Shown: positions 20,317-21,747 of the stretch, in pieces | Position numbering within the stretch: the stretch's first letter is position 1 | Layout of the letters: each line of letters begins with the position of its first letter | Source of the DNA: Pelagibacteraceae bacterium AG-390-O04 | GTDB lineage: Bacteria; Pseudomonadota; Alphaproteobacteria; Pelagibacterales; Pelagibacteraceae | NCBI GenBank assembly: GCA_003278065.1 | Contig: QCHE01000010.1 | Span: 1-43,865, forward strand | Length of the DNA: 43,865 nt | Reading direction: 5' to 3' | Notes under the pieces: generated by a model | What the model saw: only the letters and a program-made list of their open reading frames with translations | Told to the model about the DNA's origin: nothing | Databases searched by the model: none | Translations under genes and position numbers: made by a program

Positions 20317-20544
20317 TTAAATGTTTGAACTGTTATATAAAATTTCTTTATTAATACTTTGAGATTTTGCAGAAGATGCTTTTTCAGAATTTAAAGTTCC
20401 AAACTTAGCAATAAACCTGTTTTTCTCCTTAATGTATTGAATTTTTATAATAACATAAAGTGATGCAAAGCTCAAAAATGTAAATATAAATGCCGACCAA
20501 ACATATAGTCCATATCCATTCATAAAAAGTATTTCACTAATCAT
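20317..20544 (-). CDS. ccmD: Heme exporter protein CcmD
   Basis: A 75-residue single-helix protein. The GYGLYVWSAFIFTFLSFASL segment matches the short CcmD family, which links CcmC and CcmE. The start ATG at 20544 overlaps the ccmC stop as ATGA. The C-terminal tail is longer and more polar than in many CcmD proteins. The family is weakly conserved, so position between ccmC and ccmE is an important part of the call. Confidence 0.88.
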   Translation of the reverse strand: MISEILFMNGYGLYVWSAFIFTFLSFASLYVIIKIQYIKEKNRFIAKFGTLNSEKASSAKSQSINKEILYNSSNI

Positions 20545-21248
20545 AATCTATCTAAGCCTTTATTTTTAATCTTTATCAGTTCTGTATTATATTTCATTAA
20601 AAAAATTAATAAGGAAAATAGAGCAAATGCCGCAGTCATGATTAATAATGGAAATAACATTGATACATGAATTGATGATTTTGATAAAATATTGATTGAT
20701 GCTGGTTGATGTAATGTGTTCCACCAATCAACTGAATATTTTATTATAGGAACATTTACTATTCCTAAAATTGTAATAATTGAAGTTACTTTAAATATTT
20801 TATTATCATTTTCATAAATTCTCCAGGCAAGTAAATACATAACATAAAATATTAATAAGATTAACATTGAGGTTATTCTGGCATCCCAAGCCCACCATGT
20901 TCCCCATGTTGGTTTTCCCCATATTGAACCAGTAACTAAAGCAATGATATTAAATACTAATCCTGATGGCGCTAAACTTTTTGAGATCAAAAAAAAGTTT
21001 CGAATTTTAAAAATATACCCAATTATAGATAAAAACGTAATTGAAGAAAAAATTCCAAGTGTAATCCATGCTGCAGGAACATGAACATACATTATTCTAA
21101 CTGAATGGCTTTGTTTATAGTCTTCTGGAGAGAATATTAGTGCCTCTGTTAATCCAATTGAAAGAATAATAATAAATAATAATAAGATATATCTAGGGGC
21201 TCTAGATGTTATTGCAAAAATTTTATTTGGTTCAAAATATTTAAACAT
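20541..21248 (-). CDS. ccmC: Heme transporter CcmC
   Basis: A 235-residue protein with six membrane helices. The periplasmic tryptophan-rich WWD motif WGKPTWGTWWAWDARITSML starts near residue 110. Conserved His residues appear in RIMYVHVPAAW and WWNTLHQPASI. CcmC loads heme onto CcmE. It is the first gene of the ccm cluster in transcription order; ccmA and ccmB are not in this window. Its upstream spacer holds a long inverted repeat and a TTGACA box that may form the operon's leader and promoter. Confidence 0.96.
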   Translation of the reverse strand: MFKYFEPNKIFAITSRAPRYILLLFIIILSIGLTEALIFSPEDYKQSHSVRIMYVHVPAAWITLGIFSSITFLSIIGYIFKIRNFFLISKSLAPSGLVFNIIALVTGSIWGKPTWGTWWAWDARITSMLILLIFYVMYLLAWRIYENDNKIFKVTSIITILGIVNVPIIKYSVDWWNTLHQPASINILSKSSIHVSMLFPLLIMTAAFALFSLLIFLMKYNTELIKIKNKGLDRL

Positions 21249-21299
21249 TTTATATTTATATTTTAACTTAATTTAGCAAATTTTATTATGAAAATATTG

Positions 21300-21361
21300 T
21301 CTGATCAAGATTGTAGAGGGAGATAATAACGAAGGGTAAATAATAAACAATCTTGATCAGA
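21300..21361 (-). ncRNA. Long hairpin between hspQ and ccmC, possible 5' leader element of the ccm operon
   Basis: A perfect 15-bp inverted repeat (TCTGATCAAGATTGT at 21300-21314 and its complement at 21347-21361) encloses a 32-base loop. The loop is itself made of two near-identical direct repeats, GGGAGATAATAA and GGGTAAATAATAA on the plus strand, separated by CGAA. There is no T-run immediately after either arm, so it does not look like a simple terminator. Read on the minus strand it would sit close to the 5' end of a ccm transcript starting from the TTGACA box at 21388-21393. No known RNA family is recognised. Confidence 0.55.
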
Positions 21362-21364
21362 TCT

Positions 21365-21393
21365 ATTAGGAAAATAATAAATTGCTGTGTCAA
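21365..21393 (-). promoter_or_regulatory. Putative ccm operon promoter
   Basis: On the minus strand a consensus -35 TTGACA (21393-21388) is followed 17 bases on by CCTAAT (21370-21365), with CTAATA or TAATAG one or two bases further as alternative -10 boxes. The -10 is imperfect. Transcription would start within or just before the long hairpin. Confidence 0.4.
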
Positions 21394-21426
21394 AGATTTG
21401 AGCTAAATGTGTTAAAAAAGTGATCT

Positions 21427-21747
21427 CTAATTTGAAGGCTTAAAATAGCCTGATCCTTTTTTTCCAGAGAAAATTTCTTCAATTAAAGGATGTTTTATTG
21501 GTTCATCAGAGTCATCTATTAATAAATTTTGCTCTGATACATATGCCTCATAAGTGATTTCATCATTTTCAGCCAATAAGTGATAAAAAGGTTGATCTTT
21601 TCTTGGTCTTACATTTTTTGGTATTGATTGGTACCATTCTTCAGAGTTATTAAACTCAAAATCAACATCATAAATTACACCTCTAAAGTCAAAGTGTTTA
21701 TGTTTCACAATATCACCTATTGAAAATTTTGCTTTTTGAATTGGCAT
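21427..21747 (-). CDS. hspQ: HspQ / YccV-like heat-shock protein
   Basis: A 106-residue protein. Residues from AKFSIGDIVKHKHFDFRGVI through EEWYQSIPKNVRPRKDQPFY to HLLAENDEITYEAYVSEQNL match the HspQ/YccV family almost end to end. E. coli HspQ has been described as a hemimethylated-DNA binding protein and as an adaptor or specificity enhancer of Lon proteolysis; which role applies here cannot be told. A small C-terminal extension (FSGKKGSGYFKPSN) follows. It is the first gene of the 18-kb minus-strand run, divergent from yciB. Confidence 0.93.
   Translation of the reverse strand: MPIQKAKFSIGDIVKHKHFDFRGVIYDVDFEFNNSEEWYQSIPKNVRPRKDQPFYHLLAENDEITYEAYVSEQNLLIDDSDEPIKHPLIEEIFSGKKGSGYFKPSN

Follow-up and report, generated by a model that had tools for sequence, protein, structure and literature searches.

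The spacer between hspQ and ccmC in the window (the whole stretch of 43,865 nucleotides analysed here) almost certainly encodes a conserved RNA hairpin, read from the minus strand at positions 21300–21361, as judged by sequence comparison. The best reading of this element, to which a probability of about 0.4 is assigned, is an independently started small RNA that exposes an anti-Shine-Dalgarno motif in its loop. SAR11 bacteria, which rank among the most numerous cells of the ocean, carry very little non-coding DNA and few regulators, so that an RNA with its own control block and a presence in six genera probably has some importance for them. This makes it a candidate, amenable to testing, through which proteorhodopsin, the light-driven proton pump, and nutrient uptake might be controlled post-transcriptionally.

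A sequence-only reading of this DNA had described a perfect 15-bp inverted repeat around a 32-base loop, and this is what is found: TCTGATCAAGATTGT forms the arm at 21300–21314, its exact reverse complement lies at 21347–21361, all 15 of 15 bp pair, and the 32-nt loop occupies 21315–21346. Read as minus-strand RNA, 21347–21361 is the 5′ arm and 21300–21314 the 3′ arm. The claim that such a stem is beyond chance also holds, as none of 300 dinucleotide shuffles of the 178-nt spacer equals it; the longest perfect arm among them was 13 bp and occurred once. No other inverted repeat of at least 14 bp with a loop of 3–60 nt is present in the whole 43.9-kb window, and the arm sequence occurs only at these two sites in the 1.06-Mb assembly (completeness about 89%). 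The spacer has a G+C content of 23.6%. The folding z-score is −5.98 for the minus-strand RNA, with none of 200 shuffles as good, and −3.15 for the plus-strand RNA, with one of 200 as good.

Each of the 90 same-genus loci compared has the hairpin in an identical position, preceded by the upstream block. Of these loci, BLAST returned 30 and the other 60 were hand-picked from its list, so that 90 of 90 holds for loci whose spacer gives a BLAST match. That search, run on 300 same-genus genomes, gave strong matches in about half, and all 300 matched at E ≤ 10, so the tally is uninformative by itself. A covariance model built from 73 of the 90 hairpins, with near-duplicates left out by eye, was used in an order-wide search and matched 249 of 271 same-genus genomes at E ≤ 3.6e-7. 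Absence from close relatives, the outcome set beforehand as telling against the element, is thus not what was seen. In the remaining 22 genomes, ccmC is likewise without a match, and hspQ, searched for in 11 of them, gave none, so the locus itself is missing from these assemblies and the idea that the hairpin was lost in some relatives was rejected. Genomes of this group (e.g., G270, G351 and G361) are rated up to 97% complete; the region may really have been lost in them or may fall in a gap common to the assemblies.

Among the divergent loci recovered by the model (L127–L141), 14 of 15 hairpins lie between hspQ and ccmC, and the other one (L138, from genus g9) has hspQ only. Weak model matches with neither hspQ nor ccmC in the fetched stretch (L094–L097, L142 and L144–L156) were set aside as chance. 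A collection scan with an exact pattern that reaches close relatives only gave 104 stretches, and the 80 listed were all titled Pelagibacteraceae, Pelagibacterales or Pelagibacter; viral contigs gave no exact match to a 22-base pattern.

Covariation in the stem, which had been suggested as a check, is extensive. Pairing is kept in 98.4% of the 1095 cells of the 73 distinct hairpins, and nine of the 15 stem pairs have changed on both sides, with none of 500 shuffles reaching these pair counts. The G·U cells number 140 when the sequences are read as minus-strand RNA and six when they are read as the plus strand. Together with the folding score, these features argue for a structured RNA on the minus strand, and a plus-strand RNA was rejected. 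The G·U asymmetry also largely refutes an element acting at the level of DNA, in which the inverted repeat would be a binding site or a cruciform and the RNA incidental. The TGATCA in each arm is itself a palindrome and an operator-like block adjoins the repeat, as such an element might have it, but the stem sequence is replaced across genera, which speaks for RNA pairing and not for a protein reading DNA, and this explanation is very improbable. A peptide coded in the hairpin was rejected, since the lengths of the hairpins are spread over all three frames (38/28/24) and the hairpin is therefore not coding sequence.

No known RNA family had been recognized at first sight, and a search of the window against Rfam 15 agrees: there was no match to the hairpin at or above the gathering cut-off, and its weak matches, below the gathering score, are attributable to chance. 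The only family found is the ffh sRNA (RF01793), elsewhere in the window at 1705–1758 on the minus strand. On these comparisons, the hairpin is a real conserved RNA that is new to Rfam.

Outside the genus, searches for the hspQ gene (YccV-like; in the window at 21427–21747, minus strand) succeeded in all 13 genomes drawn from five other genera of the family and in all six of a sister family, f2. The hairpin lies behind hspQ in all 13 of the other-genus genomes, with stems that are largely replaced and a loop core that is kept. When 12 of the 90 same-genus hairpins, chosen for diversity, were aligned with 12 of the 13 from other genera (L358, a near-copy of L357, being omitted), 96.4% of 334 cells paired across the six genera and 14 of 16 pairs showed double changes; again, none of 500 shuffles reached the pair counts. 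In the sister family, the next gene follows hspQ at once in six of six genomes, with no hairpin there and no such spacer.

The RNA follows hspQ in every family genus examined, including the 14 divergent model loci and L138, and it could accordingly be part of the hspQ transcript, either as a 3′-end hairpin that stabilizes or ends the hspQ mRNA or as a processed 3′ RNA. This is improbable, as a conserved promoter-like block separates hspQ from the hairpin, the hspQ genes of the sister family do without such a spacer, and a 3′ end would not need a conserved loop.

The gene on the other side is less constant. ccmC (20541–21248, minus strand) follows the hairpin in four of the six family genera examined (g1, g2, g4 and g5). 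In g7 and g9, represented by one genome each, the RNA stays behind hspQ and is followed by a gene for a PagL-like lipid A deacylase, and ccmC sits elsewhere, after ccmE, with neither hairpin nor block. A role specific to heme or cytochrome c assembly, which had been considered for the leader of a ccm operon, is therefore unlikely; the function of the RNA is probably not tied to ccm, and by its distribution the RNA is not obligatorily a ccm leader. In the window's own genus, a leader role for ccmC is still conceivable, and where ccmC adjoins, read-through may add to its expression.

The upstream block (21368–21425, minus strand) resembles an operator array of four half-sites spaced 11 bp apart. 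It was defined from an alignment of 63 of 83 distinct blocks, with near-duplicates left out by eye, in which a C is invariant at columns 4, 15, 26 and 37 in 63 of 63 same-genus blocks; these correspond to positions 21422, 21411, 21400 and 21389. In other genera, the 11-bp C–A array is seen in 12 of 12 loci scored, at six to eight of eight positions. It beats dinucleotide shuffles, which were also allowed their best offset, at 5% or better in ten of the 12, the other two lying above that level (L360 at 6.6% and L362 at 14.6%). An array of direct half-sites, 11 bp apart and followed by a −10 element, has the arrangement of what we take to be a tandem operator of the OmpR/PhoB type. The block would bind an activator of this family, and two tandem dimers would fit the spacing.

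A −10-like TA is found at 21376–21375 (alignment columns 50–51), and the end of the block is 25–27 nt from the hairpin in 80 of 90 loci. From this element and this distance, the RNA is expected to start 1–5 nt before the stem, at 21362–21367 on the minus strand. A transcript beginning beside the stem, as first proposed, is supported by this prediction. The TTGACA box on which that proposal relied is indeed present on the minus strand, as TTTGACA, but relatives have TTAGACA, TAGGCCA or TTGGTCA instead and the conserved −10-like TA is only about 12 nt behind it. Judged by this alignment, TTTGACA is therefore probably not a −35 box, being neither conserved as such nor correctly spaced. It is likely that the RNA has its own regulated promoter.

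A predicted start at the hairpin, with ccmC beginning shortly behind it, also suits a 5′ leader, in which the hairpin would belong to the downstream mRNA (that of ccmC in g1, g2, g4 and g5 and of the PagL-like gene in g7 and g9) and would protect it or be bound by a factor deciding what becomes of it. No consistent terminator separates the hairpin from ccmC, which is in keeping with a leader. An intrinsic terminator was rejected, given the 32-nt loop and the presence of at least five T within 14 nt in only 41 of 79 distinct same-genus loci and in none of 13 from other genera. A free RNA would therefore need processing or another ending. Yet the downstream gene has been exchanged between genera while hspQ, the operator, the stem and the loop core stay. 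Between the hairpin and the start codon, the same-genus sequences differ from one another except in a partly conserved TTTCATAATA motif, and the kept CUCCCUY loop would need an explanation of its own. The leader is a serious contender, though on this evidence rather an unlikely one.

Directly behind the hairpin is a T-rich tail (21281–21299, minus strand) with a TTTCATAATAA motif that is conserved in part of the genus only. The pattern TTTC[AG]TANTA follows the hairpin in 51 of 79 distinct same-genus loci and, judged by eye, in none of 13 loci of other genera; it may serve in processing or as a ccmC start. In the g9 locus L352, the 3′ arm sequence ATTGGGC can also pair with a downstream GCCTAAT, behind which stand eight T, so that this one genome may have a terminator or switch here.

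The small-RNA reading depends on the loop. Its conserved motif, UUAUUAUCUCCCUCU (21315–21329, minus strand), has the core CUCCCUY, which is complementary to ribosome-binding sites of the GAGGGAG type. The core reads CUCCCUC or CUCCCUU in 13 of 13 other-genus hairpins. The run of C is three long in 67 of 79 distinct hairpins and four to six in the other 12, a group that includes L056, L064, L065, L067, L070 and L073. Two near-identical units had been noticed within the loop, and both are there, at 21318–21329 and 21335–21347; relatives keep the CUCCC unit alone, and the direct repeat was consequently rejected as a functional unit. A pseudoknot between the loop sequence UUAUUAU and a downstream AUAAUAA was also rejected, as several rows of the alignment, judged by eye, break the pairing without compensation.

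In the proposed mechanism, the stem would present CUCCCUY as a single-stranded loop, which would pair in trans with GAGGGAG-type ribosome-binding sites and lower translation. Such a loop could be selective because few of the inspected SAR11 starts carry a Shine-Dalgarno-like motif: any of four such tetramers precedes 52 of 716 ORF starts, a non-random sample made up mostly of neighbors of the hairpin locus. It could thereby pick out a small set of mRNAs, with proteorhodopsin and some genes for periplasmic binding proteins or transporters as candidates. Alternatively, a C-rich loop on a rigid stem might be bound by an RNA-binding protein and serve as a sponge or in RNA turnover. The loop core is kept while the stem is replaced, as a protein-binding RNA would have it, and the C-run varies from three to six, which base pairing would tolerate less than a protein might. 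However, this alternative leaves the complementarity to proteorhodopsin leaders unexplained, and we know of no partner protein for the hairpin; it is quite unlikely.

The candidate targets bear on anti-Shine-Dalgarno action most directly. The complement of the loop core, GAGGGAG, lies 6–7 nt before the proteorhodopsin start in 17 of 17 g1 genomes with a match (19 searched) and also precedes the gene in two of two g5 genomes with a match (three searched), and GAGGGA precedes none of the 716 other ORF starts. In g4, both genomes have AAGGGAG at this place and the g4 loop reads CUCCCUU, which matches it. A DctP binding-protein gene and, in g5, a gene for an ABC sugar-binding protein carry AGAGGGAAATAATAATG, one mismatch from the full loop complement. 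Pairing of the window's own loop with its own proteorhodopsin leader is predicted at −17.8 kcal/mol, which is matched by 0.4% of shuffled loops. In the same letter-shuffle test on ten genomes, three fall at 0.3–0.4%, six at 3.4–8.5% and one at 28.5%; this last, no better than shuffled loops, is one with a C-run of four to six.

Other results on the targets are less favorable. The loops show no preference for the proteorhodopsin leader of their own genome, growth of the C-run is not followed by proteorhodopsin, which keeps GAGGGAG, and the leaders of g2 and g9 fit the loop poorly. Long antisense targets were rejected, as matches to the 14-nt loop complement are not enriched in ten genomes (222, against 215 for the reversed control). 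GAGGGA(3–9)ATG is enriched in eight genomes (253 versus 115), an excess that is partly Shine-Dalgarno usage because GAGGGA is itself Shine-Dalgarno-like; only four of 30 such places that were read are gene starts, and most are inside genes. In the window, GGGAG(3–10)ATG is not enriched (four, with 4.0 expected). With evidence as mixed as this, anti-Shine-Dalgarno action of the loop is proposed tentatively, at somewhat less than even odds, and it is doubtful that proteorhodopsin is a real target.

Several known RNAs invite comparison. The AbcR1 and AbcR2 RNAs of Rhizobiales, as described in the text of PMC5461406, have a single-stranded CUCCCA (M1) in their first hairpin and act on ABC-transporter mRNAs, including those of periplasmic binding proteins. 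The SAR11 RNA is likewise alphaproteobacterial with a C-rich loop motif, although CUCCCUY differs from CUCCCA in its last base. Unlike what that text describes, it has one hairpin only, with no GUUCCC (M2) behind it in the aligned same-genus rows; it also differs in genomic place, in its stem-borne loop of 20–32 nt and in having targets that are candidates. The CcsR/CIN1-type RNAs and SmelA075/SmelA099 present CCUCCUCCC loops (PMC10253847, PMC3927594). As far as these articles describe them, they share with the SAR11 RNA an anti-Shine-Dalgarno motif (here a candidate) that is kept in the loop while stems diverge, and a conserved link to a small stress-related gene. The CcsR RNAs, however, are tandem, share a transcript, made from an RpoH promoter, with a DUF1127 gene and are closed by a terminator, according to the same texts, whereas here one hairpin stands behind hspQ with its own 11-bp-repeat block and no consistent terminator. 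Membership in the CcsR/CIN1 group was rejected: the genome has one copy of the arm and one strong model match, the neighbor is a YccV-like HspQ, and the loop core is CUCCCUY and not CCUCCUCCC.

A 2009 survey of Candidatus P. ubique described the rhtB element and other motifs, intergenic hairpins found by comparing marine sequences (PMC2704228). The present hairpin resembles these as a SAR11 intergenic hairpin found by comparison, but the motifs in the text of that survey are flanked by rhtB, pntA, babIM or SAR11_0636 and not by hspQ or ccmC, and neither “ccm” nor “hspQ” occurs in its main text. The lower limit of 26% G+C stated there would exclude a spacer such as this one, at 23.6%. The text of a start-site study (PMC5069720) does not discuss the hspQ–ccmC hairpin, and literature searches, covering articles without their supplements, returned no paper describing a hairpin RNA beside hspQ.

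Expression data from strain HTCC1062, as given in the text of PMC5069961, bear on the promoter. In sulfur-limited stationary phase, ccmC mRNA was up 10.35-fold and was also 4.74-fold higher than in control cells at stationary phase, and the mRNAs of the binding proteins opuAC and livJ2 stood at 0.22 and 0.23. As a correlation, these values fit a regulated promoter together with a negative effect on binding proteins. The rise in ccmC, linked to this locus by gene name, would also suit a regulated leader. The responding unit in this published induction may be the adjoining RNA promoter and not cytochrome c assembly as such.

The operator may have a second place in the genome. The block pattern was found at 50 places in 20 genomes, compared with 16 for the reversed control, and in at least eight of the 20, a site of the same geometry starts 49 bases before the ATG of an ORF of 37–38 aa. 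This ORF (MIKKLL..DAK.WIQK..) is conserved, apparently leaderless and located between genes for an E2 acyltransferase and a thiolase; its product has no acceptable Pfam match. The second operator-like site is at G000:C8:5140–5165 (minus strand) and is also seen in L337, L343, L344 and L347–L350. Among 16 loci with other weak matches to the operator model, only L316 is at a plausible intergenic site. Sharing of the operator suggests a small regulon under a regulator that is still missing. At its most far-reaching, the single-hairpin RNA might be a SAR11 master switch that lowers proteorhodopsin and abundant substrate-binding proteins together, under a response-regulator operator shared with the 38-aa leaderless microprotein; this is speculative and unlikely as a whole. 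Were it true, co-evolution would have left its trace in g4, where a G-to-A change in the proteorhodopsin site is matched by a C-to-U change in the loop. Several of the proteorhodopsin loci L407–L423 also have a palindrome-like AGTTTATATAAACT before the leader, a possible operator in its own right.
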